Below are positions 12,969 to 39,484 of a stretch of DNA of 64,000 bases, in pieces. This stretch comes from Planctomycetia bacterium (GTDB lineage: Bacteria; Planctomycetota; Planctomycetia; Gemmatales; HRBIN36), in NCBI GenBank assembly GCA_016795155.1, contig JAEUIE010000002.1, forward strand, positions 1-64,000, read 5' to 3'. The notes under the pieces were generated by a model. The model was not told where the DNA came from. It was given only the letters and a program-made list of their open reading frames with translations, and ran no database searches. The position numbers were made by a program, and so were the translations under genes. Positions within the stretch are counted from its first letter, which is position 1; each line of letters begins with the position of its first letter.

Positions 12969-12970
12969 CT
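12927..12970 (+). other. Left attachment-site repeat (attL) within tRNA-Val
   Basis: 44 bp from the anticodon loop to two bases beyond the discriminator, identical to 30072-30115. Bases outside the block differ on both sides. Starting in the anticodon loop is typical of tyrosine-recombinase sites in tRNA genes. Confidence 0.88.
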
Positions 12971-12976
12971 CGATCA

Positions 12977-13009
12977 GAACCGTTGACAGGAATTGTCAGC
13001 GGTTCTTTT
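12977..13009 (+). terminator. Terminator downstream of tRNA-Val
   Basis: 12-bp stem GAACCGTTGACA / TGTCAGCGGTTC with one G-T pair and a 5-nt loop, followed by TTTT. It lies just inside the island. The ~260 bp between it and the next gene hold no gene I can support. Confidence 0.75.
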
Positions 13010-13271
13010 GTTGTGCCGTGGCAACCACTTACGTCTGATGTATCCACCGACGGTGTCCGCTTGGCATTTGCTGGCGTACTGACTGGTGTGACCTCACATT
13101 GTCCTGCTTGCATCTGAGTTGGTGCAAGTACCGCTTCACAAATTCATTTTCTCCATTCAGATACTATATCGCCCGAAGGCCTATCCTCTGCTGCGTATCG
13201 CACACATGGTCCATACTGTGGCCATGAACACTCTTAAAATACGGAATCATTATTTCTCGATGTAAGCCATT

Positions 13272-14690: not shown

Positions 14691-17600
14691 TCGACGTGCA
14701 GGAATTCGTTGCTGCCGAACAGGGTACGTAAGAAAGCGGCCAGGGAACGGGCTTCGAGGTTATCTTTCTTATCCGCTTTCAACTCAGTCTGGTATGAAGT
14801 GAGAAAGGCTACGGCATAGGCACTTTCAGCTTCGGTGGGTGGACGGCCATATGCCTGACGGTAAGCTTGAGCGATACACTCCGATTGGCTGGCCGAGGCT
14901 GATCGCAATCGCTGGGCCCATTTCTCACTGGCGCGGTGAATGAAGGGATCGTTCAAGAAGTAGAGTGACTGCGTGGGTACCGTGGTCACCAGGCGATCAG
15001 CGGTGGAAGCATTTGGGTCAGCTCCATCAAAGAGCGCCAGGAACGGATGCCGTTTGAGACGTTGGGTCATCAGGTAGATACTGCGTTTGTTGTGTGCATA
15101 GACGGCGATGAACGGATCGTGCTGCGTGAAGCCCCAACGGATTGGCGAAGGAAAGGGATGTTCATGGCCCGGTGCAATGTCGAGCTCCCCACTAATGACC
15201 AGGATGGCATCACGGATTTCTTCAGCACTGAGGCGACGCCGGGTAAAGCCTGCATAGAGATCAGAAGATGACTGGGATGCTTGCTGATAAGTTGCACTGA
15301 GCATGATCAGGCGGTGCATTGACTTGATCGACCATCCATTGCGAATGAATTCGGTGGCTAAGTGATCAAGCAACGCTGGATCTGAGGGTGGCTGGCCACG
15401 CACCCCAAAATCATTGGGGGTCTTCACCAGTCCCTGTCCGAAGTGATGTTGCCAGATGCGATTGACCATAACACGCGCTGTGAGTGGATGTTCGGGCCGA
15501 GTAAGCCAGTGGGCAAGTTCCATCCGTCCGCTACCGGTGGTTCCCTCGGGTAAAGACTTTCCGCCCAGCGACTTGATGAAGCCACGTGCTACCTCTTGGC
15601 CTGGTTGATCCGGTTCGCCACGCAGTTGAATGCGACAGTTATGCGGGGTGCCTTCTGCTACGCCATATGCCATCGCAAAGGGTTCGCTGGCCAGCAGGGT
15701 TTCCAGCTGTTTTCTGGCCTTGGCGGTTTTGGCCTGGATAGCTGCGAGTTGCTGGCGAATTTCAGCGATTTGTGCGCGTCGCTTTGAGTCGTCCCTGATT
15801 GGTACTGCGGTGGCTTCAAGAGGTGGTGTTGACGCATTGCCAAAGTAAAAGTTGTCGGCATCCAGCGACGGGCGAACGCCAGGAAGGTGGCCATAACTAT
15901 CGATGAATGAGTAATCGATCACGCCATCCCACGGAGTTGCCAGTTGGCCACTGAAGTTGATCTTGCCCTTCTGTGAAACCAGCACCCCTGTGTAGGTTTT
16001 TGCTTTCAGATCCAGAGTCAGTTGCACCTGGTACCACTGACCGAGCAGAAGCGGCCCGACTGACTTTGTGAGATCACCGCTGCGCTGGAAGAACTCATGA
16101 TCGTTAAAGAAGAGTTCGATGGCTGCGGAGTTCCCAGGACCATGCCCAAGGTAGTAACGCCAGGAGCCTAGGCCACCTTTGGCGTTGGAACCACAGCGGA
16201 AATCGAAGCTGGCATAAAGGCGCTGCTTGTCGTCCGGTTTGAGGTTGGCAAGAACTAGTCCAAAGCCGTCGTATTCACCACGATTAGGCAGGTGCATGCC
16301 GAGCTTGCCGGACGGATAGCGATTATGGAAGGGACTTTGCGAGCTGGCTGAAAGCTTCACGACACTATTGGGGCCAGCGTTCCAGGGACTGGCGGGTGGT
16401 GTAGCATCTGTCTGATGTTCAAGGTCGCCATCTATCCCAGTTAATGCCTTTAAGCGATCGTTGAGTATTATCGGGTCTGGTTCATTTGACGATGTGTGAA
16501 CAGGTGGTCCCTTCGAGACTGGCGCAATAGGTGTATCCTGAATGCCCAGGTTATCAAACTCAATCGCGGGTAGTTTTCCATCTGCTTGGCCATAACGTTC
16601 AAATATCACATGGTTGATAACAGCGGACCACTCGGAGTTAATAGATTTGGCGGCAAAATCAGGAGTTGAGCCTGGTATGCCGATACAACCCGCAATTGTC
16701 TTCTTGTGTAGATCGAGAGTCGCTTGCAGATTGTACCACTGATTCAGCTTCACAGTGTAGATCGGCGTAGGCACCCCGCTGGTGTGAAGTAACACTGAAT
16801 CGCCAGTGATCAGGATTTCAACTGCAGACTTATCTCCGAGTGTGCCCAGAGCGAAGCGATGCGATGCTTTGGAGCCTTGATCTATTGAGGTTACTCGGAA
16901 ATCGAGATTGATGTAGAGCGTTTTGCAGTTCGTTGGGGTCCGCGCTGGAGAGATCGCCTGGGTAAATTGGTACATTCCCGCATCGGCAGGAACACTTGCG
17001 CCAACTTTCCCCAGCCGATAGAGATTCTGGTACGGACTCTGAGCAGTGTTGGTAATGGCTATTTTGCCCTTGTAAAGCCAGGGCGGAACGAGCACGCCAT
17101 TGCTGCCACCTGCAGCCGGGGCTTGGAGCTCGAAATCGCCATCCATGTCGTGAAGAGAACATAATAATGCTGCGGGAATCGGCTGCTTCTGTTTTGCTAA
17201 TGTGTGGGACAGGACGGCCAACTCGGTTTGATACTCATGCCATCTTGTTTGTGATTCTCTGGATGGCAGCAATGGTGCCAGGGAACGTATCTTCTGCTTT
17301 TGCTCTGAACCGGGGAAAGCGTAGCGAGTGCTATCAAAAATGCCATACAGAGCGTAGTAGTCGTGCATGGTGATGGGATCGAACTTGTGATCATGGCAGC
17401 GTGCACAGCCAACGCTAAGGCCCATCACAGATTGGCCCAGCGTATCGATGGTATCCTGAATGGTGAGATGGTGATAGTTCTCCGAATCGAAGCCGAAGCG
17501 GCGAGAGAGAGCGAGAAAGCCAGTGGCAGTGACACGTTCGGCAAAGCGACCACGTGGTCCATGGTCGGCAAGCACATCGCCGGCCACCTGTTCACGCAAG

Positions 17601-18445
17601 AACTCATCGTAGGGTTTGTCCGAATTGAAGGAGTCGATGACGTAATTGCGATAGCGCCAGGCTGAGGGCACCGGGTAATCAGCCGTCTCGCCGGCTGTAT
17701 CAGCGTAGCGAACAACATCAAGCCAATGACGTCCCCAGCGCTCGCCATAGGCTGGCGATTGAAGCAGTCGATTCACGACAGTCTCGAACGCCTTGGAAGA
17801 GTTGTCAGCCAGGAAGGTATCGATCTCGTTGGGTGTCGGAGGTAACCCGGTCAGATCGAAGGTGGCACGGCGGATCAGGGTCAGCTTGTCTGCGGGAGTA
17901 GCAGGGCGAACGCCAGCCGTTTCCTGTCTGGCACGGATGAAGGAATCAATGGACGTTTTAAGCCACGTCTTGTCTTTGACTTCTGGCAGTGGTACATCAC
18001 GAATCGGCTGGAACGCCCAGTGTCTGGTGGTCTCAAACTTCTTTGAACTTGCCGGCCAATATGCACCAGACTTCACCCAACTTACCAGGTCAGCCACCTG
18101 ATCAGCCCGTAAGGCATGTTTCTTCTCCGGTGGCATGGCGGCAACACCGTCCTGCCTTTGGATGGCACGGATGAGCAGACTATTCTCTGGTTTGCCGGGC
18201 ACAATAGAGGGGCCTGAGTCGCCGCCTTGGAGCAAAGCTTCACGTGAATCGACTCTCAATGATCCCGATGTTTTTCCGTCACCATGACAACGAAAGCAAG
18301 TGCCCAGAAGAATAGGCCGTATTTTGGCTTCAAAAATCGCATCATGATCATCGGCGCGGGCCGAATCAACTGAAACAATCGAAAGGCTCAGAACCAGTAG
18401 CATACTGTTTCGAACCAGCCAGGTCATAAGCCTTGCTTCTGTCAT
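14687..18445 (-). CDS. PSD1-type cytochrome protein (PSCyt1-DUF1549-DUF1553) with two inserted lectin-like domains
   Basis: 1252 aa. It has an N-terminal signal, then a planctomycete cytochrome domain with CFRCH (Cys50-Cys53-His54), DUF1549 ([32 protein letters not shown]) with a second CxxCH in [12 protein letters not shown], and C-terminal DUF1553 ([43 protein letters not shown]). Between DUF1549 and DUF1553, residues ~430-880, are two similar ~200-residue units. Each opens with DGD(F/L)E, shares [13 protein letters not shown] / [13 protein letters not shown] and a predicted LamG-like beta sandwich. The protein is longer than most relatives for this reason. It is coupled to DUF1501 downstream. 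Heme binding is predicted from the motifs only. Confidence 0.88.
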   Translation of the reverse strand: [1252 protein letters not shown]

Positions 18446-18899
18446 CGCTCAATGCCTATTCGATGTTGTGTTGGCGGTAACGGTCAAATTTCTGGTGGGA
18501 CTGCCTTGTTAAGCAGTGGTTCAAGAAAGTACTCAGTATCGTACACGATCATCTGGTAAATGCCCAGCATTAGCCATAGTGAGATTGAGCAATTCCTGGT
18601 TTGTTAGTGAAATGGTGTTTTGCTGGAACGATGTCTGAGCGTGTGTCACAACTCATACTTCGATCAGACCACAGCATTAGCCAATCTGGAAGGTCTGTGA
18701 AAGCAAATTGATGAACGAGAACTTGGACTCCAAACGATGCAGCCATCAAAGCTCTGGCTTGTGCCTGAGCATCATTATAAATTTCGCCAGTCGGTTCGAG
18801 GTATATATCACAAGATTGTGTTCTGCTGTGGCATGCACGTTGACAGACGGAACAATCAAATATGATGCTATTCCTGACGTAGTTTACGTGGTATATATT
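18446..18899. other. Gap inside the island with no recognisable gene
   Basis: 454 bp between the PSD1 gene and the fhs fragment. Short open frames exist on both strands, but none resembles a known protein convincingly. Likely decayed sequence. No promoter, terminator or repeat stood out. Confidence 0.5.
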
Positions 18900-19322
18900 T
18901 TAGGCCAACCCAGCCGCTTGGGATAATGTGTAAGCGAGTATTGCGTCTTGGCAATGCAGACTTTCAGTTACCACGTAGTCAGCCAGACGTACCGCCATGA
19001 GATCAGCGATAACGGAAGAGTTGCCGTGAGCAATCTTGGCAAAAGGCCCGGCATGCACCAGGGCAGGCGTTCCCTCTGCAGTCTGCACCAGGTTAGGCCG
19101 AAAGGTATCAGCCAGAAGGGCTGCCATCGCCCCGGCGGTGCCAATCTGTTCAGCGATAACTGGTGATCCCTCTACAGTCTGTCCCACTACGATGCATCCC
19201 AGGCATTCACGTATATCAAAGTAACAACCCGTGACAATGCTACCCAGTCCACTCATTGCGCATTCACCATGAGGAGGCCCGATAAACAGCAACCCTTTCT
19301 TAACTAGAGAAGAAGTGAGCAA
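18900..19322 (-). pseudogene. fhs: Fragment of formate-tetrahydrofolate ligase
   Basis: 140 codons are open. The central part matches the FTHFS core as known from the family: CIVVGQTVEGSPVIAEQIGT, AGAMAALLADTFRPNLVQT, EGTPALVHAGPFAKIAHG and MAVRLADYVVTES. Intact FTHFS is about 550-560 aa; here the ATP-binding N-terminus and the C-terminal half are missing. FDIRECLG looks like an internal deletion joining FDI to the ERLGRIVVG region, and normally invariant residues are changed (HAGPFAKIAHGNSSV for the usual HGGPFANIAHGCNSV). This is a relic inside the island, not a working enzyme. Confidence 0.8.
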
Positions 19323-19348
19323 AAAAAATAACCCTGCATAAGCAGGGC
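19318..19348 (-). terminator. Terminator for the fibronectin-III protein gene
   Basis: On the minus strand: stem CCCTGC / GCAGGG with TTAT loop followed by TTATTTTTTTT, 23 bp beyond the stop codon at 19371. Confidence 0.75.
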
Positions 19349-19370
19349 TTTTGGATTAGAAAATTGATAT

Positions 19371-20303
19371 TTAGGGACGAGTCCTTGCTTGGACGTTCAC
19401 CCAAGGAGAAACCGAGGAGGTCGTATTTAATCGTACTCGATAAAGATAGAGAGTTTGACGCTGTAGTCCGGAATCTACGTAGCGGTTCATATTAGCGTTC
19501 ACCTCGGCAACAGTGTTCCATAAGGCAGTGTTCAGATCAAATTGTTGTATCTGCAAGGTGGTACCCGCGTCGTAACGCCCACGCCAGGAAATCTCAATGG
19601 AGGTTGGTGTTTTGGGTCGAGCTTGGACCCCCGCTGGTGAAGCGAGTCCAGGACCGGTGTTAACAGTGACTGTATCGGGAGCACCTGTGGCTGTGGTAAA
19701 TCGCCAAGGCCGAACTCGGTAAATGTAATTCGTACCGGTTTTCACTTGGGTATCGTAATAGAAATTGGAATTTGGGGGTAAGGTGGCAATCACTTCGAAA
19801 GCGGTGAATCCTTCTTCCACTCGCTCAACGTCAATATGTGTTTCATTCGTGGCATTTTCAGTCCAAGTAATCAGTGCACCCACGCCATCGTAGACTCCAG
19901 CCAGATTGGTAATCTGCGCTGGCATCAGAAAGGTAGTTGTCGCAGAGGCTTCATTACTGAAGGCTGATATGGTCGTATTCGACAGAGCACGAACCCGGTA
20001 AATGTAAGTGGTGTTCTCATCCAAACCGACATCATTCATCGAGTTGATATTGAAGGGGACGATTTTGATCGTGGCAAAGCCAGCGGGGTCACCCGATTTC
20101 ATGCGCTGCACTTCAAAGCCTGTTTCGCCTACGGAGTTGTCATCCCAAAACAAAGATATAGCCATATCGCCAGGCACACTGGCCATGGCAATCAAATTCG
20201 TTGGAGGAGGGAGATTCTGCGCAGAAAGCTGCGAAATACCACTCAAGGTAATCATCAGTGTCAGTACTATGCTGAGCTTTCCCACTGGTGCTCTATGTGA
20301 CAT
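19371..20303 (-). CDS. Secreted protein with three fibronectin type III domains
   Basis: 310 aa with a signal peptide (residues ~1-28, ending ISQLSAQ). Three tandem units of ~90 residues show the FN3 pattern: an N-terminal proline-rich start (PPPTNL, PAQITNL, SPAGVQA), a Trp in the second strand (SLFWDD, LITWTE, EISWRG) and a tyrosine-corner strand (TTYIYRVRA, TNYIYRVRP, TLYLYRVRL). No catalytic domain is attached, so it is probably a binding or surface protein. It stands alone with its own terminator between the two PSD1/DUF1501 pairs of the island. Confidence 0.82.
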   Translation of the reverse strand: MSHRAPVGKLSIVLTLMITLSGISQLSAQNLPPPTNLIAMASVPGDMAISLFWDDNSVGETGFEVQRMKSGDPAGFATIKIVPFNINSMNDVGLDENTTYIYRVRALSNTTISAFSNEASATTTFLMPAQITNLAGVYDGVGALITWTENATNETHIDVERVEEGFTAFEVIATLPPNSNFYYDTQVKTGTNYIYRVRPWRFTTATGAPDTVTVNTGPGLASPAGVQARPKTPTSIEISWRGRYDAGTTLQIQQFDLNTALWNTVAEVNANMNRYVDSGLQRQTLYLYRVRLNTTSSVSPWVNVQARTRP

Positions 20304-20390
20304 GTTTGTATTCCTTTCAGTGAAATGAAGCTCTTCTCATCAAGAGGAGGGGGATTGGTGCCTCGCATCCGCCATAATTAACTGGAATCA

Positions 20391-20700
20391 CTCGCAATCT
20401 GTAATGATCATACCCGTAAAGAGATAAGTGTTGCGGTTAAGACGTGCAATAACAGCTGGAAAATCAGGATTCGTTTCCATGGCTGTCGGTGCATAGATGG
20501 TATCATTGGTACCGTGCATGCCATCGCCACTGAGATAAGGTCAGTAGCGCACCATCATTTGTTCACATACTTTTGCCAAGTTTTATCATAAGCATGGATG
20601 TAATACTTTGGGGAGCCAATGTTGAACTTTCCGCCAAGTGTGGAACGCGTAGCAACTTGAGAGTGGATACGATGAATATCCTGGTATATTATCAATGACT
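20391..20700 (-). pseudogene. Degraded coding remnant, family unknown
   Basis: Upstream of the fibronectin protein, two protein-like minus-strand stretches lie in different frames. One (~20575-20690) reads RSTLGGKFNIGSPKYYIHAY and then ends at a stop. The other (~20391-20530) includes GMHGTNDTIYAPTAMETNPD and ends FTGMIITDCE before a stop. Together they suggest the end of one gene broken by frameshift or stop. The family is not recognised. The rest of 20304-20762 shows nothing else. Confidence 0.35.
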
Positions 20701-20762
20701 GATTCAGTGCCCGTCTAGTGACTCAATGCCTGCCTCGAAAGATGCTGCCATTGGAACGATCC

Positions 20763-23540
20763 ATGAAGTTGACCTCAAGCCTTGTCATCGCGGCTCTGCT
20801 GAACCTCTGTTGTAGCGCGTATACAGATGATCCCATTGATTTTGTCCGTGACGTTCGACCCATCTTTGACAAGCACTGCATCCACTGTCATGGTGCGGCG
20901 AAGCAACGATCGGGATTTCGACTGGATGTGAAGTCCGAGGCGATCAAAGGGGGCAACACCTTTCAACCCGCGATCATTCCGGGCAAGGCTGATGAGAGTC
21001 CGATGATCCACCTGGTCACCGGAAAGAACAAAGACCTGGTGATGCCGCCCAAAGGCGAGCGATTGACGGAGAAGGAAATCAAGGCGCTCTCGGCATGGAT
21101 TAATTCAGGGGCTAAGTGGCCGGCAGGAGTTGATCGACTAAAGCTGGAGAACAAACGGAATCACTGGTCGTTTCAACGATTGAGCACGCCCGAGGTACCC
21201 AGGCCGGCCCAAGAAGCCTGGCCGCGTAACGGCATCGATCGATTTATCCTGGCACGGTTAGAGAAAGAAGGCCTTGCCCCCAGTGCAACCGCTGATCGTG
21301 CGACCTGGCTGCGGCGGGTGACGTTCGATCTCACCGGGTTACCTCCGACACCTGATCAGGTGCAAGCATTTGTCAATGATCAACGTCCGGATGCTTACGA
21401 ACGAGTTGTGGATGAACTGCTGCGATCACCCCGCTATGGCGAACGCTGGGCCCAGCACTGGCTCGATGTGGTGCGTTATGCTGATACGCATGGCTACGAA
21501 GTGAATACCGAGCGACCCAATGCCTGGCCGTACCGTGATTACGTCATCGACGCGATCAATAAGGACACGCCGTACGATCGCTTTGTTAAGGAGCAGCTTG
21601 TCGGCGATGCGATGGGGAAGGATGCCGCGACGGGGTTCCTGGTGACCTCCTCGGTGCTGCTACCCGGCCAGATCGGGGCGGATGAGCCATCGAAACGACT
21701 AGCCCGGCAGGATGCGATCGATGAAATCGTAATCAACGTGGGACAAACCTTCCTAGGTCTGAGTATCGGTTGTGCCCGCTGCCATGATCACAAGTTCGAT
21801 CCGATCAGCCAGCGTGATTATTATGCGATGCAGGGGTTTGTCGCCGGGGTGGAGTATGAGGACCGTCCGCTGCAGACCCTGGAAGCAGTAGCGGCGAGGA
21901 AAGCCATTGCCGAGGCGAATGCTGCGATCGCTGAGATCGATCAGCAACTGGCACGCCTGGTACCGCTGGCTCGTTCCGGTGTCAAGCGGCCCATGCTGAA
22001 TGCCCGCATGAATGTTGAACGGTTCACTCCGGTCAAGGCAAAGCGTCTTCGTCTGACCATCCACGCGACCAACAACCTTGAGCCATGCATTGATGAACTG
22101 GAAGTGTTTGACAGCAAAGGAAAGAATGTCGCTCTGGTCAGCGCCGGCACGAAGCCCACCGCCTCGGGAAGTACGACGGTGGCGGACCGCCATGAATTGC
22201 GTTTTGTCAACGACGGGGTATATGGCAACTCCCGCAGCTGGATGGCAGATCGCACCACGGGCTGGATCACACTCGAATTCACTGAGGAGCAGATGATCGA
22301 CCGAGTGGTCTGGTCCCGTGACCGTGAAGGCAAGTTCACCGACCGGCTGGCGACAAACTATGTCATCGAAGTATCCATTAGAGACGATAAGTGGATGGTG
22401 GTAGCTGACTCGAGTGATCGCGTGATCTTCGATGCCAGCAATGGGAGTGCCCAGACGTTTTCCACAGATGGGCTGAGCAAGGATGAAAAGCAGGAATCCA
22501 CGAAGCTTCTGGCACAACGGAAAGTTCTCGAACGGAAAGTGAAGCAATCGAACGTCGCCCTGGTGGCGTTTGCCGGCCTGTTTCGCAAGCCGGATGTCAT
22601 CCGGCTGCTTTCACGTGGCGACCCGGAACAACCTAAGGATGAGGTCTCAACCGCCATTCCTGAAGTTTTCGGCAAAACGAACCTGGCGAAGGATGCGAGC
22701 GAACAGCAGCGCCGCCTGGCACTGGCTGAGTGGATAGCCAGCCCGGAGAATCCGTTGACAGCCCGGGTGATCGTTAATCGCCTGTGGCAGGGCCATTTCG
22801 GAACCGGGCTGGTCGATACGCCCAGTGATTTCGGGTGGAATGGTGCCAAGCCAACGCATCCGGAATTACTGGACTGGCTGGCGAATGAGTTCATCCGAAA
22901 TGGTTGGTCCATGAAGCACATTCATCGCCTGATTGTTCTGTCGGCCACTTACCGACAAGGCAGCCGGATCAACGCCAGTGCACAGGCAAAAGATGCGGAT
23001 GATCGACTACTCTGGCGGTTTCCTTCACGCCGGCTTGAAGCAGAAGCGGTACGTGATTCGATGCTGTTTGTCAGCGGACAATTGAACCTGCAAATGGGTG
23101 GACGGGGCTTTGACTTGTTCGACAAGCGAGGCGGGCTGACCGGGTTCAAGCCCATTGAAACGCTGACCAAGCAAAGCCGGCGGCGCATGATCTATGCTCA
23201 CCGGGTCCGACGGGAGCGGGATGGCGTGTTTGGGGCGTTCGATTGCCCTGACTATGGTCAAAGCACTGCCCGCCGACGGGAATCGACAACGCCACTGCAA
23301 GTGCTCAACCTCTTCAATAGTTCATTTACCTTCGATGCAGCAAAAACGTTTGCTGAGCGTATTGAACGGGAGGCAGGAACGAATCGTACTGCTTCCATCC
23401 GCCATGCTTATCTGCTGGCACTGGGCCGGGATGCTTCCGCCGATGAGATTGCTGACGCCAGCAAGGTGGTCAGCGACTATGGGCTGCCTGTGCTATGTCG
23501 GGCCTTATTCAATTGCAACGAATTTCTTTACCTCCCCTAG
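20763..23540 (+). CDS. PSD1-type cytochrome protein (PSCyt1-DUF1549-DUF1553), second pair
   Basis: 925 aa from the ATG at 20763, chosen because it opens a hydrophobic signal ([17 protein letters not shown]). PSCyt1 has CIHCH (Cys39, Cys42, His43). DUF1549 has [14 protein letters not shown] and [18 protein letters not shown], ending in [12 protein letters not shown] with a second CxxCH. A discoidin-like middle segment (residues ~430-600) precedes DUF1553 ([39 protein letters not shown]). Seven bases separate it from the following DUF1501 gene, so the two form an operon. It runs opposite to the first pair in the island and lacks that protein's tandem insert. Confidence 0.9.
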
Positions 23541-23547
23541 GTAACGC

Positions 23548-24996
23548 ATGAATCCCTATTCGAACTTTTTTGATCGCCGGCGCTTCCTGGGCCAGAGTTC
23601 CACGGCGCTGGGGGCGATTGCGTTGACCAGTCTGCTGGGTCACGAGGGAATGCTGGCAGCGCAGGACCCGGTGATCGATCCGGGTAAACCCTATGCGCCG
23701 CGTGCTACGCACTTCCCGGCGAAAGCAAAACGGGTGGTGATGATTTTCTGTGCCGGGGCGGTCAGTCAACTGGAGACGTGGGACTACAAACCTGAGCTGA
23801 TCAAACGGGACGGCACTCCGCTGGCTGGTGGCCCTGCAGTCACGTTTCAGGGGCCGGCGGGCAACCTGGCGCGCCCACAATATGAGTTTCGACAACGGGG
23901 CAAGACGGGGAAGTGGGTTTCGGAGCTGATTCCGCATCTTGCTGAGCTGACCGATGATATCGCGTTTGTCCATTCGCTGACCAGCAAGAGCAATACGCAC
24001 GGCCCCGCGGAGAATTTCCTCTCCACCGGTTTCGTGCTGGATGGATTCCCCAGCGTTGGTTCGTGGGTGACCTACGCGCTTGGAAGTGAGAACCAGAATC
24101 TGCCCGCCTTCGTGGCGATCCCCGATCCACGAGGCGTTCCGCAGGCGGGATCAAACAACTGGGGGCCGGGCTTTCTTCCTGCGGATTTCCAGGGCACGCC
24201 ATTCAGCGCTACTGAGAAGATTCGCCACCTGTCGCCGCCGAACGGAGTTTCGACCGAAGTGGACCGTGCCACCCGGAAGCTGCTGGATCGCATGAATGAG
24301 CGGCATCTCGAGAAGAACCCGGGCGATAGCCGGCTGGCGGCCCGGATTGCCAGCTATGAGCTGGCGGCGCGCATGCAGCTCAGTGTTCCCGAGCTTTATG
24401 ATCTTTCCCAGGAGCCGGCCCATGTAATGAAGCTGTACGGAGCTGACGATTCGACCAATCCGACCAAGGCTGCGTTTGCCCGCAACTGCATCCTGGCCCG
24501 CCGACTTATTGAAAAGGGCGTTCGCTTTGTTCAGCTCTTCAACGGTGCTTATGCCAGTGGAGGCGACCTGAACTGGGATGGGCACAACAAACTCAAGGAA
24601 CAGTACGACAAGCATGCCGCCATTCTCGATCAGCCTGCTGCAGCGCTGATTCAGGATTTGAAACAGCGCGGGCTGCTGGCTGATACCCTCGTCGTGTGGT
24701 GTACCGAGTTTGGCCGGATGCCGTTCTTCCAGAAAGGGGCCAAGGGCCGCGACCACAACCCGGATGGTTTCACCTGCTGGATGACCGGGGCAGGCATCAA
24801 GCCGGGTATCAGCCACGGTGTGACTGATGAGATCGGCCAGCGAGCTGTACAGGACATTCACCCCCTGTATGATTTCAACGCCACGATCCTGCATCTGCTC
24901 GGCCTGGATCATGAAAGACTGACGTTCGAACACAATGGGGTGCGACGCCGATTGACCAATGTCGAGGGACATGTGATCAGGGAGATGCTGCTCTAG
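23548..24996 (+). CDS. DUF1501 family secreted protein (second pair)
   Basis: 482 aa. Tat-type signal [20 protein letters not shown] near residues 8-27. DUF1501 landmarks: [81 protein letters not shown] and [20 protein letters not shown]. The family resembles the alkaline-phosphatase/sulfatase fold; no substrate is established. It is the downstream partner of the PSD1 gene in the same operon. It is clearly divergent from the other DUF1501 protein in this island, so the pairs are not a recent duplication. Confidence 0.9.
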
Positions 24997-25168
24997 GATT
25001 CACCAGTAGCGATGGCATTTCGCGGAAAAACGTCTCGCAGTGGATTCGCAGATGGTGATTCCCGAAATCATTGATCTTCCCCTTGTATTTGTGCCTGAGA
25101 CTAGATTAGTACCTCTGGTGTTTGAGCTGAACCCCGTCTTAGGTCCAAGCAGGAAGTTAGGGAAACAG

Positions 25169-25201
25169 GGTTTTCACTGGGGGCCCCCCCCAGTGAAAAC
25201 C
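25169..25201. repeat. Perfect 15-bp inverted repeat beside the transposase relic
   Basis: Arms GGTTTTCACTGGGGG and CCCCCAGTGAAAACC flank CCC. It lies immediately at the 3' end of the IS3 transposase remnant, where an IS end or a terminator might be. The ~160 bp to its left show no gene. Confidence 0.7.
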
Positions 25202-25361
25202 GCGCGAACTCGATCGGCGACCGCTGCCCGAGAGCGCTGTGCGGTCGATGATTGTTGTAGTCCAGTCGCCAGGTCTCGACACGATTCTGGGCATCAGCCA
25301 GCGACTAGAACCAGTTCTGATTCAAACACTGTTCTCGCAGCTTCGCGTTGGTAGCTCTTTC
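25200..25361 (-). pseudogene. IS3-family transposase C-terminal remnant
   Basis: Translation gives ERATNAKLREQCLNQNWF, then an in-frame TAG, then SLADAQNRVETWRLDYNN and HRPHSALGQRSPIEFARF. This is the end of the DDE catalytic domain of IS3 OrfB (the usual form reads LRDECLN.HWF.SL.DA...W..DYN..RPHSSLG..TP.EFA). The stop replaces a leucine codon. The rest of the transposase and the IS ends are missing. It abuts the broken tail of the sulfatase gene, suggesting IS-mediated damage. Confidence 0.8.
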
Positions 25362-25382
25362 ACAGCCTACGCAAGTAGTTAT

Positions 25383-25559
25383 CTAAGGGATTACAAGCTG
25401 ATATTTGGCCATCGCCGCCGCGAACGCCTTTCCGAGTTTGAGTTGACCAGCGGCGTTGTAGTGGACGGTGTCGGGCATGAGGGAAAAGCCGTCGGTGGAT
25501 ATCATCGTAGTGTTCATCATCGCCGCCGGTTTACCGGAGGCTGAATCACACGCAGTCAT
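25383..25559 (-). pseudogene. C-terminal remnant of a sialate O-acetylesterase (SASA/SGNH) domain
   Basis: 58 codons whose ATG shares a base with the sulfatase stop. Residues STDGFSLMPDTVHYNAAGQL and KLGKAFAAAMAKYQ match the end of SASA-type esterases, where the catalytic His follows the Asp (D..HY). The start of the same domain (VYLLAGQSNMQG) is the tail of the sulfatase reading frame, so a central part of the esterase domain has been deleted and the frame shifted. Confidence 0.65.
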
Positions 25560-27280
25560 CACTTCGCGGTGCCGAGGGCGAAGCCAACTTCCGGGCCGAA
25601 GTCAGTGATCCGCGTCGAGATTTTCGTCGTGCCCAACACAAGCGGCTCGAAATTCTGGCCAGTCCAGAAGAATGTGTGCGGAATGGTCTTCGGCACGTCG
25701 GCAGGATGATCCGCGATTCTGCCGATTCCCTGCATGTTCGACTGGCCGGCGAGCAGGTACACCTCCGCCGGCTTGGCGACCTTTGCTTTCCGCGTCACAC
25801 GGTCGGGCCATTCGATTGGCTGTCTGGTTTCCTTGTCGGTCGGCATCTGGGCATCCATCACCCGCAGACGTTCACCCAGTACCTTTGCCAATTCGACCAC
25901 CTTGTCTGGTTTGGACGCCGCGAGGTCAGTCGTCTCGCCAATGTCATCGTTCAGGTTGAACAGTTCCTGCTTGCGCGTGATGTGGTGGTAGATCAGCTTC
26001 CACGGCCCTTGCCGAACGGCGCTAAACGGCGTGCAGCCATACTGATGTGGATAGTGCCACACGAACGCCCGGTCTGGCGGGGTGTTCCCATTGCCTTTCA
26101 AGAGTGGTACGAAGCTCTTGCCGTCCACCTGTTGCACCGTCTCTAGCTTTGTCACGCCCGCCATTTCCAAGATCGTCGGGAAGAAGTCTTCCACGACAAC
26201 CGGATTGGTGTTCACCGAGTTAGCCTCCGTCACTCTGGGCCACTTGGCGATCAATGGTACGCGAATGCCGCCCTCGAAAGGCGTGATCTTGTGCCCTCGC
26301 AATGGCAGGTTATGTGGACACTGAGACGGCGACCCGTTGTCAGAAAGGAACAGAATGACAGTATTCTGGTCCACATGGAGCCGTTTGACTGCTTCCATTA
26401 CGTCGCCAAGCGACTTATCCATTCCCTCGACCATGGACGCGAGTGTCGCCTCGAACGGCTTCAACCCGGCATCGATATACTTCTGGTAGAAGCGGGCATC
26501 TTTCTCCCACGGGGCGTGAACGGCGTAATGTGATAAGTAGAGGTAGAACGGCTTCTTCTCCATGACGGCCTTTTCAACGGCCTTAATCGCTTCCAGAGTG
26601 ATGGCTTCGGTCAAATAGACCTCTTTGCCGTGATAGGCTTCCAAACCTGGCACATCCCAGATGCGATCTTCCTTCCGCCAAGCAGCGCTGAAGTTCTTCT
26701 CTCCCCAGTAGCTACCCGGTCCTCCAGCCGCGTGCCCTGCGATGTTCACGTCGAATCCGAAATGCATGGGATCTTCGCCTGGTGTACCTTTGGCTCCGAA
26801 ATGAGCCTTGCCTGCGTGGATGGTTCGATACCCCGCGGCGTTCAGGAGGGCAGGCAGTGGCGTGATGCGAGTCGTACGCTCGAGGTTCGCCTTGGTAGCC
26901 ACGCCGTTCAGGTGCCACTGGGGAGGCTCGACGAACTTGCTGGGCTGATCCGGGGAACGATCCTTTCGCAGCGTCCAGTTGGTCACACGGTGGCGGGCAA
27001 CGTTCATTCCCGACAGGATGCTGACCCTCGACGGCGAGCACACGGCGGAGGCATATGCCTGGGTGAACCTCATCCCGTCGGCGGCGAGCCGTTCCATGTT
27101 CGGCGTGCGATACCGTTTGTTCAGCTCAGTCACTTCCGTGTGAAACGGGACGGAGGTTTCCTGCCAGCCCATGTCGTCCACAAGGAAGACGACCACGTTC
27201 GGTATTGGTGCTTCAGCTTCAACTTGAGTACACACGGACAGGAGCAGTATGACTACTACGAAAACAGGTTTGAAACTCAC
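25559..27280 (-). CDS. Formylglycine sulfatase with a truncated C-terminal SASA esterase domain
   Basis: 573 aa from the GTG at 27280, preferred because GGAG lies 8 bases upstream and a signal peptide follows; the frame is open 20 codons further. It is an S1 sulfatase: metal site NVVVFLVDDMGWQ, modification motif CSPSR in SAVCSPSRVSILSG, then HAGKAHFG, FLSDNGSPS and GWKxxx-like QGPWKLIYHH. The sulfatase domain (~residues 25-480) looks complete. After it comes the start of an SGNH/SASA esterase (VYLLAGQSNMQGIGRIADHP) that stops after FGPEVGFALGTAK. Sulfatase activity may persist; esterase activity cannot. The natural substrate, probably a sulfated polysaccharide, is not shown. Confidence 0.82.
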   Translation of the reverse strand: MSFKPVFVVVILLLSVCTQVEAEAPIPNVVVFLVDDMGWQETSVPFHTEVTELNKRYRTPNMERLAADGMRFTQAYASAVCSPSRVSILSGMNVARHRVTNWTLRKDRSPDQPSKFVEPPQWHLNGVATKANLERTTRITPLPALLNAAGYRTIHAGKAHFGAKGTPGEDPMHFGFDVNIAGHAAGGPGSYWGEKNFSAAWRKEDRIWDVPGLEAYHGKEVYLTEAITLEAIKAVEKAVMEKKPFYLYLSHYAVHAPWEKDARFYQKYIDAGLKPFEATLASMVEGMDKSLGDVMEAVKRLHVDQNTVILFLSDNGSPSQCPHNLPLRGHKITPFEGGIRVPLIAKWPRVTEANSVNTNPVVVEDFFPTILEMAGVTKLETVQQVDGKSFVPLLKGNGNTPPDRAFVWHYPHQYGCTPFSAVRQGPWKLIYHHITRKQELFNLNDDIGETTDLAASKPDKVVELAKVLGERLRVMDAQMPTDKETRQPIEWPDRVTRKAKVAKPAEVYLLAGQSNMQGIGRIADHPADVPKTIPHTFFWTGQNFEPLVLGTTKISTRITDFGPEVGFALGTAK

Positions 27281-27340
27281 AGAAATCTCCGGTTGTGAAG
27301 TATTGCCTTTGCTCCGATCCCACTCCGCAAACCAGAACAT

Positions 27341-27736
27341 TCAAGCCGAGTACGACCACGTCGTGTAGGTCGTCGCCTACCAGGACGATCTGTGGCAAAA
27401 CCTATGGGTCGTTCTCTCTTAGACTGGTTCCATAAAACTGGTCGAGTTCAAGGAAAAATAAGTCCGCTTCTCAGCGCACCCCGCCAGCCTACTGAATTTG
27501 TTGCCCTAACGCAACTAAGAGCGATCTTGCTGGACATGTACAATAGCGATCGTGTTGCACTTTCTCTAGAACATTCCGGCTAATATCAAACCGCATTTCA
27601 AGAACAGTCTCTATCCAAAACATCTCTCCCTCATCGAAACAATGAGCCAGCCTTGGCAGAGTCCCCGCAATGTGGATCAGTAAAACAAAAGGACAAGCAA
27701 CATCGACTTGATGCGAACATAGAAAAGACCACTGGC
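27341..27736. other. Island gap without recognisable content
   Basis: About 400 bp between the sulfatase and the S9 peptidase relic. No convincing gene on either strand, and no repeat or terminator noted. Confidence 0.4.
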
Positions 27737-28004
27737 ATGAAGATTACAATGCATCTTACATTCTTGGCTGCTTTGGCCATCGTATTTTTGATCCTGCACG
27801 GTCCACGGCACTGGTGAAACGAACACGCACCTGCAAATCACGGAAAGCCTGGTGGATCGACTGATCGAGCTGGGCAAGAAATTCGACTACATGGCTTACC
27901 CGAACCGCGACCACGGCTTGCGCGAGGGCAAGGGCACACCGGTACACCTGCGAATGTTATTGACACGATATCTAATCGATCATCTGCCCCCTGGCTCCCG
28001 GTGA
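27737..28004 (+). pseudogene. Remnant of an exported S9 peptidase (dipeptidyl-peptidase IV type)
   Basis: From 27801 the frame reads VHGTGETNTHLQITESLVDR, LIELGKKFDYMAYPNRDHGL and VHLRMLLTRYLIDHL, then stops at 28002-28004. This is the end of the prolyl-oligopeptidase catalytic domain, including the active-site His of the RDHG motif. Just upstream, in another frame, an ATG at 27737 opens a signal peptide (MKITMHLTFLAALAIVFLI). The gene has lost its beta-propeller and nucleophile Ser in a large internal deletion. Confidence 0.75.
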
Positions 28005-28145
28005 TCTCATTACCAATTTTGCATATCATCAATGAATGATAGAGGGAGCAGTAACAGCGAAATTACCTCCCCGACCACGGCGGCTGACTGTTCCGCGCGG
28101 AGCGGGTGATCGAGTGATTGAATTTCCAAGTTCCTGAGGGTTCAA

Positions 28146-29437
28146 ATGCGTTACGCCCTGGTTGTGCTATCGGTTATTCTTGCCATCGGAACACTTTCGG
28201 CCCAACAGAAACCGAACATCGTGCTGATCGTCTCAGACGATCAGGGCTGGACCGACTACGGGTTCATGGGCCATCCTTACATGCGCACGCCTCATCTCGA
28301 CAAGCTGGCAGAGGAAAGTCTTGTCTTTCACCGCGGCTATTCCGTCACGAGCGTGTGCTGCCCCAGCCTGGCATCAATCCTCACTGGCCTGTCGCCACAC
28401 AACACACAGATCTGCAACAACGATCCTCCCAAGCGGGGCAAGACGGCGAAGGAGCTAGCCAACGACGCCGAGTACGCCGAGGCACGTCGACGGCTGGTGG
28501 TCAAGATGGAAAAACTGCCGACAGTGCCCCGGTTGTTGGCGCAGCAGGGGTACGTGAGCTTCCAGACGGGCAAGTGGTGGCAGGGAAACTTCGCCACCGG
28601 CGGATTTACGGCAGGCATGAGCCACGGCGACCCTGCCAAGGGAGCCCGCCACGGTGATGCCGGGCTGGACATCGGCCGGAAGACGATGCAGCCGATGTTC
28701 GACTTCATGGATAAGGCCGCTAAGGACAACAAGCCGTTTATCGTCTGGTACGCCCCGATGCTACCGCACCAGCCGCACAACCCGCCTCCCAAATACCTCA
28801 ACCATTTCAAGGACAAGGGTAAGAGAGATTTCGAACGGAAGTACGCCGGCAACGTCGAATGGTTCGACGACACCTGCGGGCAACTGCTCGCCCACCTCGA
28901 CAAGACGAAGTTGGCGGACAACACGATTGTGGTCTACGTGACAGATAACGGCTGGATACAGGACCCCAACGCGAACAAGTTCGTGCGTTCAAAGCTGTCG
29001 CCTTACGACGCCGGTCATCGCACCCCAATCATGGTCCGATGGCCTGGCAAGGTGAAGCCGGCCAAAGTCGAGGAACTGGCGAGTTCGCTGGACATCGCCC
29101 GACGCTGCTGGCGGCAGTCGGCATTAAGGCTGACGCCGCAGTTGAAGGACTGAACCTCCTGGACGCCGATGCCCGGAAGGCCCGCACCGCCATCTTTGGT
29201 GAGGACTACAGCCACGATGCCGTGGATATCGACAAGCCGGCCAGTTCTCTGCGATTCCGCTGGATAATCGAAGGTGAGTGGAAGCTGATCGTGCCGAACC
29301 GAGCGGTTGAACCAAAAGCAGAGGTTGAACTGTACCACATCACAATTGACCCGGCCGAGAAGACGAACCTTGCCAGGTCGGAACAGGAACGGGTGACGGC
29401 GTTGGCTAAGATCATGGATACCCGATGGAAGCCATAG
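28146..29437 (+). pseudogene. Sulfatase gene broken by a single-base frameshift
   Basis: Frame one (28146-~29098) encodes a signal peptide and a sulfatase: NIVLIVSDDQGWTDYGFMGH, motif CCPSL in TSVCCPSLASILTG, QTGKWWQG, YVTDNGW and MVRWPGKVKP, up to SSLDI. The sequence then continues in another frame (29099-29437) as PTLLAAVGIKADAAVEGLNL, RFRWIIEGEWKLIVPNRAV and ending KIMDTRWKP, as expected of a sulfatase C-terminus. One missing C in the run at ~29098-29100 would explain it: ATC GCC CCG ACG would restore LDIAPTLL. The motif has Leu where C-x-P-S-R sulfatases have Arg. This is either a real pseudogene or a sequencing error. Confidence 0.8.
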
Positions 29438-29465
29438 GCACAGGCCTCTCGGACCCGCCACAAAA

Positions 29466-29744
29466 TCACTTCTTTGCTTTAGGGGTGGAACTCGACAAGG
29501 GTAGCGGGAGGAAGTCACGTTCTAAAATCATCCACTCCATCAAGGCGGCTCGCAAAGTGTTCTCGGCTTCAGCCGCTTCAGGCTTGCCTGCCAAGTTGAC
29601 AAACTCGCTCGGATCATTGGTCAAATCGAATACCTCAATCATTTTCCGAGCTCGCCCGTCGTACAAAGCATTAAGCGGTTCAGGCAGTTTCTTTGCCTTT
29701 GCAAGGTTTTGCACCTCTTTAAACAAGGTTGATGAATACCTCAA
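29466..29744 (-). pseudogene. C-terminal fragment of another sulfatase
   Basis: 92 codons containing MIEVFDLTNDPSEFVNLAGK, the standard sulfatase C-terminal strand-turn (xxLYDLxxDPxExxNLA), preceded by PEPLNALYDGRARK. No catalytic core is present on either side, and the gene faces the frameshifted sulfatase. A stand-alone function is unlikely. Confidence 0.65.
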
Positions 29745-29754
29745 TAAAGACTAA

Positions 29755-30071
29755 TCCATGTGCCCAGTGCGGTTTGACCCACGGTTGTCCGACCGAAGCG
29801 CTTTCGGAGTTTTACTCAAGCTGTACTTGTCACAGTTTCTGATTGCCCATGATCGCATGATGACTCCCGATTTCTCGACAGCGAATGAACTTTGATTACT
29901 GATCATATGTCCATAAAAAGTTCTCGCAAAGTTCCCGATATCGATAATCGTGATTGCATTTTCCCGCTTGTTTTTGCAAATTTTTGCAACTCACTGATTT
30001 CGAATCATAAAATCAAAAACAGCCTGGAAATCATGGGTTTTAACCGTGTTTTCGCGGTCCTTCAGGGCAAA
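29755..30071. other. AT-rich right end of the island with a tandem TTTTTGCAA repeat
   Basis: No gene. From ~29890 the sequence is AT-rich. Adjacent direct repeats TTTTTGCAAA (29971-29980) and TTTTTGCAAC (29981-29990) lie about 80-100 bp from the right attachment repeat, where arm-type integrase or IHF-like sites are often found. That function is inference. Confidence 0.4.
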
Positions 30072-30115
30072 TCGACACGCTGGGGGTCACAGGTTCGAGT
30101 CCTGTAACGCCCACT
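30072..30115 (+). other. Right attachment-site repeat (attR), copy of the tRNA-Val 3' half
   Basis: Perfect 44-bp copy of 12927-12970, with no tRNA 5' half before it. It is probably the displaced original end of the tRNA gene. Confidence 0.88.
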
Positions 30116-30318
30116 GAAACATCTAGAGCCTGAACAAAGCTCTGTTCATTCAGTGACCCGCCTAACGACACAATCATCCTCCATGAATCCCCCTACATCG
30201 GGACTTATGGGGGATGTTTGCGTTAATGAGGTATTGTTCAGGGAAAGTACGGTACTTACCTGACAGCCAGAATTTTTCTTCCCAATAGCTATTCGTTGCG
30301 AATAGCGGAGAAAACATC

Positions 30319-30727
30319 ATGGCTAGTTATCGTGATAACAAAGGCAGTTGGGAAATACGATGGTCATATAGGGGCAAAGATTATTCCAATGGATTGCCAT
30401 TACCAGTGATGATCAATGCTCAATCTAAAAATTTTGACAAGACAATGCAGTGAAGTTATACAGTTATTCATCAGCATATTCGAAACAGGACTGACTCAAA
30501 TTCCAGCCGATTGCCATGATCTTCGTCATTGGCTGTTTACAGCGGGCAAAATTGGTGCTAATGAGATCAAGCTCCCCATTACTCTCAAACTGATGGAACT
30601 CCTTGAATGGTTTACGACCACTCTCACATGGTCAAACTACGAAGAGAAAACAGAACAAACTGCAACCACTCACTCCTTAAGAAACTGTGGCGTCGCTCGG
30701 GACTACCTTGGCCTGACAGGTTGTTAG
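30319..30727 (+). pseudogene. Broken tyrosine-recombinase (integrase) gene, N-terminal part
   Basis: The ATG at 30319 begins MASYRDNKGSWEIRWSYRGK, the arm-binding N-terminus pattern of planctomycete phage-type integrases, and stops after 44 codons (30451-30453). A second frame (about 30416-30727) continues plausibly with LTQIPADCHDLRHWLFTAGK and LPITLKLMELLEWFTTTLTW, like the segment leading to the SAM-like core-binding domain. The catalytic domain with R..HxxR..Y is absent. An 8-bp palindrome (GCTATTCG/CGAATAGC, 30288-30306) precedes it. Its place 200 bp outside the right repeat ties it to tRNA-Val integration. Identification rests on a short region. Confidence 0.55.
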
Positions 30728-30766
30728 CTTCCTGAGGCGTAATAATTCCCGCTCAAAAATAAAACA

Positions 30767-30783
30767 CTGACAGTTCCTGTCAG
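30767..30783. repeat. Short hairpin resembling the tRNA-Val terminator core
   Basis: Arms CTGACAG and CTGTCAG flank TTC. Its reverse complement, TGACAGGAACTGTCA, differs by one base from 12984-12998 beside tRNA-Val. It may end the small gene at 30808 on the minus strand or be a relic of the tRNA flank. Confidence 0.4.
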
Positions 30784-30807
30784 CATTTCTGCAGCATTTT
30801 TTCCTGG

Positions 30808-31011
30808 TTATCGCGATCGGACATGTCTGCCTGGTGGCATGCATTCATGGATCTCCTGTTCGATGAGATTGCATTCCGTACTGTTTGATGCTGCCAGATG
30901 ATGTACAAATACTTTACATAACAGACCTCGTTCGGTGACTCCTTCCCAAATGCGACATTCGACCCCGTCCAAGCGGGCAATTTGATCAGTAGCCTTGAGC
31001 AGTAATTCCAT
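30808..31011 (-). CDS. Small hypothetical protein
   Basis: 67 aa, MELLLKATDQIARLDGVECR followed by IWEGVTERGLLCKVFVHHLA, with several Cys/His residues and a PPG near the C-terminus. The start is supported by AAAGGAGA 8-13 bases upstream. A longer frame on the same strand (to 31064) gives a much less protein-like translation and is not chosen. It resembles small planctomycete proteins of unknown function from memory; no domain is recognised. Confidence 0.6.
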   Translation of the reverse strand: MELLLKATDQIARLDGVECRIWEGVTERGLLCKVFVHHLAASNSTECNLIEQEIHECMPPGRHVRSR

Positions 31012-31316
31012 GGGTTGAAGTCTCCTTTCGTGCTGGAAGAACTTGATGTGTTAGCAGTATTCATCTTCGGAATCGTGATTGATACGATTCATGCAGTTCC
31101 GGGAAGTTGAATTTGATTGCGATTGTATTTCATGGCATAACCTTCAAGATCGTCAAGGTCTTTTACTGATGGTGGTGGTGAGACTTCGAAATCACTAAAG
31201 AATATCGATTAGATCAGTTTTGTCGTGAACTGTTCTCGTGGAATAAACTCGATAAGAACAGTAATTCAAGCAAGTGCTCAATAACAATTATTGCTGTTGG
31301 AGACGATGCTCTTTCC
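31012..31316. other. Gap with one short minus-strand open stretch
   Basis: Contains a ~37-codon minus-strand stretch near 31090-31200 reading SPPPSVKDLDDLEGYAMKYN before a stop, without a credible start. It may be the tail of a lost gene. Nothing else seen. Confidence 0.3.
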
Positions 31317-31949
31317 CTAATTCGAGAATTCTTCAGATGATTTTGATTTAGGTTTCTTCCAGGTTACGGGTACTTCTTTTAGCTTTATTTCTCCCATGGC
31401 GTTGACATCTAGAACGGGATCGAACGTAGGCTCATCCAGTTTCTCGATTTCACTTTTGCCACCCTCCAGTTTGAGTTGATGACGCACCAGACATCGCAGT
31501 TGATCAGCAATATTTCCTGCCTGGCGCATTTCAAAGTGTTCGTCGTGTATTCGTTCATCACCCAGGGACATACCACCTAATGCGCCATCAATAAAGAAAA
31601 GTGTAGCCGTTTTTTCGTTGCCGGTAACATGAATCCTCATCTCCTCAGTGTTGTCTTTGAGAATGTACTTCAAATCCAACTGGGGCCAGCGAAATCGAAA
31701 GGTGCCGGGGCGATCAGTAGCCAGTTTCTTCTGTTCAGTGCTTACAATCAGATCTTCTGTTTTTTTAATCTTGCAGCATCGATAAATTTTTGGTTTGTTT
31801 TTCTTGTCTTGCAAGGTTGTTTTTGCAAGGCAGATGGCGTTTCGAATGGTAATCTCTGGCTTCGCTCTATTGCGTGTTCGTATGACAAGAAACGCAATGA
31901 CTCCAACGAGGCACACTACAATCAAGGACCACAAAATCAGATTCAGCAT
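31317..31949 (-). CDS. Membrane-anchored protein of unknown function (paralogue A)
   Basis: 210 aa. One N-terminal transmembrane helix (LILWSLIVVCLVGVIAFLVI, residues ~3-22), a basic juxtamembrane segment, then a soluble domain with PGTFRFRWPQLDLKYILKD, EHFEMRQAGNIADQLRCLVR and the C-terminal EPTFDPVLDVNAMGEIKLKE. The same framework occurs in the next gene (32149-32760), so the two are tandem paralogues with about one third identity by eye. No known domain recognised. Both are on the minus strand about 200 bp apart. Confidence 0.75.
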   Translation of the reverse strand: MLNLILWSLIVVCLVGVIAFLVIRTRNRAKPEITIRNAICLAKTTLQDKKNKPKIYRCCKIKKTEDLIVSTEQKKLATDRPGTFRFRWPQLDLKYILKDNTEEMRIHVTGNEKTATLFFIDGALGGMSLGDERIHDEHFEMRQAGNIADQLRCLVRHQLKLEGGKSEIEKLDEPTFDPVLDVNAMGEIKLKEVPVTWKKPKSKSSEEFSN

Positions 31950-32148
31950 TATATGACCACTCTTCTGGCTTAGGGGGGATCAGCAACGGGAGTGAGCAAT
32001 TCCCGATGCTACAATGTGATTCGCGATTTGCAAAGCTGAATTTCTTAGCATTTAAGTCTTTATCAGACCGCAGAGAATGTATAGTCGAACGAACTCCACT
32101 ATAATTCATGCTAAATAGAAATAATATCGAAATAGCGGAGAAGCTTAA

Positions 32149-32760
32149 CTACTCTTCGTAGTTTGGCATACGTTCTGGTGGTGCATTGCCTTTTAATTTG
32201 ATTTCACCAGCTTTATTGAGATCGAGAACGGGAGTAAAAGTCGGCTCTGCTGATTTTTCAACCTTCAGTGAACCACCAGGGAAACGCAAATGATAACGAA
32301 TGAAAGATCGAAGATGGTCGGCAATAGTTCCTGCATGTCGCATTTCGAAATTTTCTGTATCCAGCGTTTCCTTATCTTTCTTGACCGCAGCTAACACACT
32401 ATCTGCATAAAAGAGTGTAATGAGTTCTTTGTAATCACCAATTCTCAAAATGATTTTCTCGTTGCCATCTTTGAGAGTGTATCCAATTTCGAGCATGGGC
32501 CAGTGCAAATGAAAAGTGCCAGGAATTTCCATCCTGGATTTGTTCTCTTCAACAGGATTAAACGGAACCTCAGATTTGTCTTTCATTCTTCGCAAGATTT
32601 GAGGTTTATTTTTGCCGTCAAGCAATGCGGCTTTCGCTTCAGAGATGGCATGCCTGACAGTGAGGTCTTGCTTAGGAAATTTTGTGTTGCGTAACACAAC
32701 CAAAGCAATCAACGCGATAACCGCAAGTACTCCAAGGATGATCAACACAACATAGAGCAT
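32149..32760 (-). CDS. Membrane-anchored protein of unknown function (paralogue B)
   Basis: 203 aa, with an N-terminal helix (VVLIILGVLAVIALIALVVL) followed by KNKPQILRRMKDKSEVPFNP, PGTFHLHWPMLEIGYTLKDG, ENFEMRHAGTIADHLRSFIR and EPTFTPVLDLNKAGEIKLKG. Alignment with paralogue A is collinear throughout, which supports both starts. It ends 48 codons from nothing recognisable and lies just downstream of the BMC operon on the same strand (80-bp gap to its last gene), so read-through from the operon is possible. Confidence 0.75.
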   Translation of the reverse strand: MLYVVLIILGVLAVIALIALVVLRNTKFPKQDLTVRHAISEAKAALLDGKNKPQILRRMKDKSEVPFNPVEENKSRMEIPGTFHLHWPMLEIGYTLKDGNEKIILRIGDYKELITLFYADSVLAAVKKDKETLDTENFEMRHAGTIADHLRSFIRYHLRFPGGSLKVEKSAEPTFTPVLDLNKAGEIKLKGNAPPERMPNYEE

Positions 32761-32840
32761 GTGAAAACCTTTTTCTGGACCATTTCATGGTAGCAAAGTA
32801 AAAAGGGGGCTGTCTAATAGAAATAAAGATAAAACTGCTT

Positions 32841-35149: not shown

Positions 35150-35152
35150 GGC

Positions 35153-35452: not shown

Positions 35453-35469
35453 GGTTACCCTCCTTTCCC

Positions 35470-35829: not shown

Positions 35830-35830
35830 C

Positions 35831-37358: not shown

Positions 37359-37364
37359 GTAAAA

Positions 37365-37799: not shown

Positions 37800-37809
37800 G
37801 GTTCGCCCC

Positions 37810-39085: not shown

Positions 39086-39087
39086 AG

Positions 39088-39466: not shown

Positions 39467-39484
39467 TGAGTTAAGTCCTGTATT

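Follow-up and report, generated by a model that had tools for sequence, protein, structure and literature searches.

Within the 64,000 nt of planctomycete DNA analysed here (the window, contig JAEUIE010000002.1, positions 1 to 64,000), two mobile elements very probably became stacked at a single tRNA-Val(GAC) gene, in either order, and decayed afterwards, as in tandem accretion (we put the probability of this reading at roughly 85%). The tRNA carries an exact repeat of its 3’ part 17 kb away, remnants similar to two different types of tyrosine integrase lie one beside each copy, and like layouts with open integrase genes occur in other genomes. Such an arrangement is already known in kind; here it is strongly decayed. 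The features are listed in Table 1.

Table 1. Features of the tRNA-Val(GAC) locus in window coordinates.
Feature	Position	Strand	Basis
tRNA-Val(GAC), integration target, intact	12895..12969	+	ARAGORN
Left attachment repeat, 44 bp, tRNA 3’ part beginning at the anticodon loop	12927..12970	+	repeat comparison
58 codons, probably the C-terminal stub of a convergent tyrosine integrase	12970..13143	-	profile E=0.0015, tRNA and repeats masked
Left element, 17 kb	12971..30071		att-bounded block
DUF1501/PSCyt gene pair 1	13272-14690, 14687-18445	-	domain scan
DUF1501/PSCyt gene pair 2	20718-23540, 23548-24996	+	domain scan
Sulfatase	25559-27340	-	domain scan
Shortened sulfatase, little C-terminal part	28146-29153	+	domain scan
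Middle attachment repeat, 44/44 identical	30072..30115	+	repeat comparison
AT-rich stretch, GC 0.425, two paralogous genes, possible right element remains	30116..32840		GC windows, gene comparison
Integrase relic piece 1, family positions 1-32	30319..30450	+	profile of 21 relatives, E=1.3 alone, collinear with piece 2
Integrase relic piece 2, in a different frame from piece 1, family positions 36-112, terminated by a stop, lacking the catalytic part	30413..30727	+	profile of 21 relatives, E=3.4e-5

The two 44-bp copies (12927-12970 and 30072-30115) are identical and read in the same direction, the left one being part of the whole tRNA-Val(GAC) and the right one the 3’ part alone. With up to 3 mismatches allowed, a 43-base pattern found the two 44-bp copies and no other place, and two matches were obtained in 0 of 100 shuffles, which bears out the 44-bp attachment repeat of the initial annotation. 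The middle repeat seems to serve both as the right end of the left element and as the tRNA-proximal end of the right element. Since the stretches beside the two copies had these 44 bp and nothing else in common (direct repeats of at least 18 nt, the sensitivity of the repeat finder), a doubled single element was rejected.

A further 44-bp copy to the right, which the initial annotation had considered, was not found between 30116 and 124000 or elsewhere in the genome. In 30116-84000 no local match scored above 13, a value inside the range of ten shuffles (12-17), and no match in 64001-124000 exceeded 15 nt. Genome-wide, the search returned just a copy internal to tRNA-Val(TAC) and two 21-nt matches (E=0.4), and the sole other match to the 31-nt repeat core with up to 3 mismatches again lay inside the intact tRNA-Val(TAC). 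Rejected as third copies were C5:51579-51612, which belongs to this intact tRNA-Val(TAC), the 21-nt match at C48:9273, a T-arm-like stretch adjoining another integrase, and the 21-nt match at C13:586 (E=0.4).

Profile comparison identifies the sequence 30319-30727 as the frameshifted remains of a tyrosine integrase N-terminus. The 1856 stop-to-stop segments of the window were searched with a profile built from 21 full-length relatives (413 positions). Piece 2 (30413-30724) ranked first (E=3.4e-5, profile positions 36-112) and the segment containing piece 1 (30289-30450) third (E=1.3, positions 1-32 from its own Met), behind a chance segment at 37980-38447 (E=0.3). Piece 1, which is not significant alone, would be insufficient for an assignment, and it is the collinearity of the two pieces together with the shared start that makes the identification good. 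The relic begins with the Met at 30319, 203 nt to the right of the second 44-bp copy, matching the approximately 200 bp noted initially, and runs through two frames (30319-30450 and 30413-30724). It resembles the N-termini of full-length tyrosine recombinases as a remnant and not as a working member. No later part of its family, past about position 112 of 413, was found at a convincing score in the window segments, nor did the PF00589 catalytic domain match anywhere in the window at E≤0.001. The earlier description of this sequence as integrase-like, frameshifted and devoid of a catalytic domain is thus confirmed. The HMM check proposed for both frames succeeded with the profile of 21 relatives but yielded nothing with standard libraries: neither piece matched Pfam or NCBIfam at E up to 10, and piece 2 had no match in PHROGs at 0.01.

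Searched as a single sequence in 61 genomes, piece 2 gave weak matches (best non-self E=0.0046 per genome), the best non-self one being the N-terminus of an integrase similar to the host’s own C53 integrase. At least three of its 21 non-self matches (in G056, G045 and G017) are N-termini of the relic’s integrase family. The C53 integrase protein itself had a match in 94 of 101 genomes at E≤0.001, many of them weak. Weak matches of the relic in its own genome, at C29 and C44, were discarded because the relic profile gave none there at E≤0.05.

The genomic position of the relic’s relatives was compared with its own. Thirty relatives were fetched (L038-L067), 21 of which entered the profile and the spacing count, the other nine being left out for a late match start or a wrong frame; for L039, L044 and L048 (in G065, G034 and G028) the upstream view ends at the contig end. 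Eight of the 21 follow a whole tRNA recognised by ARAGORN (Leu, Asn, Gln, Met, Ser) on the same strand, six follow a T-arm without a recognised tRNA (nearly a whole tRNA in L040, apparently 3’ parts in the others), and seven have neither upstream. The distance from T-arm to Met is 142-200 nt in the 13 relatives with the motif and 217 nt for the relic, slightly beyond the family range. An open integrase of the family lies about 140 nt after tRNA-Val(GAC) in G067. The relic is placed close to where its family often sits beside a tRNA 3’ end.

The relic had been taken for the only integrase-like sequence of the locus, and the island for one without an integrase inside. Neither statement was confirmed: a second, probable remnant, 12970-13143 on the minus strand, abuts the tRNA at the island’s left end and is probably what is left of the island’s own integrase, of a type different from the relic. 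The minus-strand open frame 12904-13143 extends into tRNA-Val(GAC), and the unmasked match (E=3.3e-16) is mostly owed to tRNA-coded residues. With the tRNA and the repeats masked and a trimmed profile, 12970-13143 still ranked highest among 2306 window segments (E=0.0015 at 14.7 bits, against E=4.1 for the next segment). This profile was built from 14 tRNA-abutting integrases trimmed at the tRNA and retains L162, in a wrong frame, as well as L163-L165 and L167, which end past or short of the tRNA.

The match extends over 52 residues and ends at profile position 538, short of the profile end; 13 of the 19 strong matches of a control likewise stop at 536-538. In this control, 76 distinct stretches downstream of tRNAs were searched; 19 matched strongly at E<1e-20, 15 of which had been fetched by this very homology. 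These were followed by the window (5.1e-4), L152 (0.0018, in another profile region), L070 (0.16) and L084 (0.67), and the remaining 53 stretches had no match at E≤1. The window stub is therefore the best of the 57 of 76 stretches without a strong match of this integrase type. Beside the tRNA, the tail of the window stub reads KEPLTIPVNGS, compared with KEPLTIAVNGS-like tails in five relatives at tRNA-Val(CAC), tRNA-Gly(CCC) and tRNA-Pro(GGG); the tail is KEPLSIADNGS in one of three relatives at tRNA-Val(GAC) and less similar in the other two. The nearest tail relatives thus sit at tRNAs other than tRNA-Val(GAC). As the stretch 12970-13143 can form a hairpin, its conservation may in part be that of a terminator and not of a coding sequence. 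Several other integrases beside tRNAs of this planctomycete order are built likewise: in L154-L161, the complement of a tRNA 3’ end encodes the last residues of a convergent integrase.

A direct repeat of the tRNA 3’ end borders the left element on either side, and what may remain of an integrase at its border is the 58-residue stub with its weak match. Its main genes belong to the DUF1501, PSCyt and sulfatase families, which are common in planctomycetes, and it also holds gene fragments. A fragment of a formate--tetrahydrofolate ligase gene (18900-19322) matches 87 of 556 profile positions. A detached piece with weak similarity to a sulfatase C-terminus (29466-29750) lies on the strand opposite to the shortened sulfatase gene. 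No transfer or recombinase gene was detected in the nine main ORFs scanned with Pfam. The left element seems to be an att-bounded block without a recombinase, as in a cis-mobilizable element (CIME), and as such would be movable only by an enzyme supplied from elsewhere. CIMEs are described, in the sections of a review that treat them (PMC5704250), as having lost integration and transfer genes while keeping both flanking att sites. In 12971-30071 recombination and transfer genes are likewise absent from the nine main ORFs and both att sites are kept; no transfer genes are left by which a descent from an ICE or an IME could be placed.

To the right of the middle repeat, the AT-rich stretch 30116-32840 is possibly what remains of the right element. 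Its GC content was lower than that of every one of 613 sliding windows of the same size (lowest 0.426, in an overlapping stretch); the low GC starts near 29770, about 300 bp left of the middle repeat, and not at the repeat. The neighbouring paralogues 31317-31949 and 32149-32760 (minus strand) are 41% identical and had no matches in Pfam or PHROGs, and 31317-31949 had none in 30 other genomes. The gene that follows, 32841-34121, occurs in 10 of 30 other genomes. Nothing matching 30116-32760, and no empty site, was found at the eight loci around the relatives’ copies of this gene. At the tRNA-Val loci of G001, G003, G004 and G005, inspected for an empty site, just the left-hand HNH gene (G003) matched the window beyond the tRNA. 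Neither 30116-124000 nor the genome as a whole yielded a repeat that would mark the outer end of the right element. Farther right, 34250-40692 holds a gene group with aldolase, EutN-type shell protein, aldehyde dehydrogenase, acetate kinase and PTAC genes, which we take to resemble a planctomycete microcompartment locus.

Stacked layouts with open integrases were found in other genomes. G083, searched over 6584400-6664399, has a tRNA-Pro(CGG) (6635785-6635859) with an adjoining integrase, an exact 41-nt copy of the 3’ part 31 kb away (6604687-6604727) and a relic-family integrase 166 nt outside this copy. In G020, tRNA-Pro(CGG) (2435090-2435165) is accompanied by at least four further 3’ copies, at 2519666, 2561339, 2614392 and 2638837 (whole array C1:2435090-2638851, 204 kb), and the tRNA as well as each copy adjoins an integrase or a piece of one. 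These are, in order, convergent, convergent in two frames, relic-family, another outward-reading type, and convergent in two frames. G020 was searched in 2433000-2438000 and 2482000-2643000. For both genomes, copies were sought with a 41-nt query from the genome’s own locus; the first 30 nt of the G020 query match tRNA-Pro, and the four copies share 30, 30, 30 and 15 nt with this part, the second being the source of the query. At tRNA-Val(GAC) itself, G089 has a convergent integrase of the left-stub type; a 44-nt copy (95%) follows at a distance of 8.6 kb, and beyond this copy lies an open integrase from a different family. The tRNA-Pro loci of G020 and G083 resemble the window in belonging to the same order (Gemmatales) and in the integrase types (relic family in both, left-stub type in G020), but differ in the tRNA used, in having several integrases open and, for G020, in comprising at least five copies including the tRNA.

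A separate 3’ copy of tRNA-Val(GAC) of at least 33 nt was present in at least seven of 101 genomes, the genome of the window included. Among the matches listed, the copy lies on a contig other than that of the tRNA in G070, G058 and G054. G034 looks like a plain single element, with the integrase inside and the copy 10.6 kb on. G078 was left out of the stacking count, as the 20 kb beside its copy (23016-23076) contain no tRNA recognised as whole. The viral contig L151 carries the exact 44-bp tRNA-Val 3’ sequence (12160-12203) beside an open integrase (10962-12146). Another viral contig, L153, has in 8241-10976 a tRNA-Val 3’ copy (95%) flanked by two integrases, of which the right, outer one belongs to the relic family; this contig was not counted as stacking because an excised element with two integrases would look alike.

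Two stubs of different integrase types suggest that either element left one behind where such an integrase would ordinarily lie. Each element would have carried a copy of the tRNA 3’ part, and site-specific recombination of this copy with the tRNA 3’ end, or with the one that the other element had deposited, would have inserted the element so that the tRNA stayed whole at the left and a 44-bp copy stood at the right border. The left element (12971-30071) would have brought a convergent integrase gene running into the tRNA, of which the 58-codon stub before the tRNA remains. The right element (from 30116) would have brought an integrase of a different family, its gene directed away from the tRNA end and now reduced to about the first 112 of 413 profile positions and frameshifted. 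The rest of both genes was presumably lost after insertion.

The proposal of two successive insertions at one tRNA, with the right element as the older, is supported as to the stacking, given the real relic and the examples of G020, G083 and G089, but its order is not fixed by the layout. The same layout would arise from both orders, and the right element may thus be the older one or the later entrant. Neither a third 44-bp copy nor an empty site was found, and we infer the later arrival of the left element. In the reverse order, the left element would have come first and the element with the relic integrase would have entered its right-hand repeat. The decay of both integrases would suit this course, which we nevertheless regard as unlikely: the middle repeat still matches 44/44, as would suit a recent insertion of the left element, although this argument is weak over 44 bp, and the usual route, as presented in part of the review cited above (PMC5704250), has the decayed element first and the newcomer at the gene end.

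Tandem accretion is preferred to a single element as well. If the relic integrase had belonged to the 17-kb island and been rearranged to outside the right repeat, the lack of a complete integrase in the island would be explained, but this is highly improbable given that the island has its own, different stub at the tRNA, that the relic lies about where its family often sits beside a tRNA 3’ part and on the same strand, and that open integrases lie outside the 3’ copy in G083, G020 and G089. We give equally little credence to the idea that an element with its own tRNA 3’ part landed by chance at a secondary site 17 kb from tRNA-Val, leaving ordinary chromosome in between. The common cargo families and the nine scanned island ORFs without a mobility gene would fit such a course, but against it stand the 44/44 agreement of the copy with the nearby tRNA, in equal orientation, and the integrase stub adjoining tRNA-Val(GAC). 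A joining of two loci by short reads at the repeat is scarcely credible, for although the genome is a draft of 68 contigs, 44 bp is a short repeat for modern assembly and comparable layouts are present in long contigs, such as the single 10.1-Mb contig of G020.

Whether integrase types follow one another at tRNAs of this planctomycete order in a loose sequence, the convergent type next to the whole tRNA and outward-reading families behind, is very doubtful. The window and G089 at tRNA-Val(GAC) and the first members of the G020 array at tRNA-Pro show it, but the integrase at the last G020 copy is convergent and G083 starts with an outward-reading type, so any ordering rule would be loose.

Tandem accretion has been described for ICESt1-related elements (Pavlovic et al. 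2004, as cited in portions of PMC5704250 and PMC4891358). Passages of the latter describe successive elements at one target, with copies of the target end between them and integrases that can be unlike (PMC4891358). The window seems to share the succession at one target and the unlike integrases, each of the two types standing beside its own copy, and differs in that just two att copies are left, both integrases are stubs, the outer border of the right module is missing and the elements are not known to excise. The ssrA islands of Dehalococcoides, according to excerpts of PMC3146451, are arranged in tandem beyond the RNA gene and bounded by copies of its 3’ end, with the integrase gene 3’ end overlapping attL, and some are proposed to be cis-mobilizable. 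This overlap is like that of the convergent left-stub type, but serine recombinases act there at a tmRNA gene, in contrast to tyrosine recombinases at tRNA genes here (PMC3146451).

Of the four papers listed by a literature search for planctomycete tRNA islands, none was on this subject by its title. Altogether, the locus shows that planctomycete genes of ordinary appearance, bounded by tRNA sequence, can be identified as a decayed mobile element even where two standard domain libraries detect no integrase, and tRNA genes in this planctomycete order appear as deep stacking sites, as in G020 with tRNA-Pro and its at least four copies over 204 kb.
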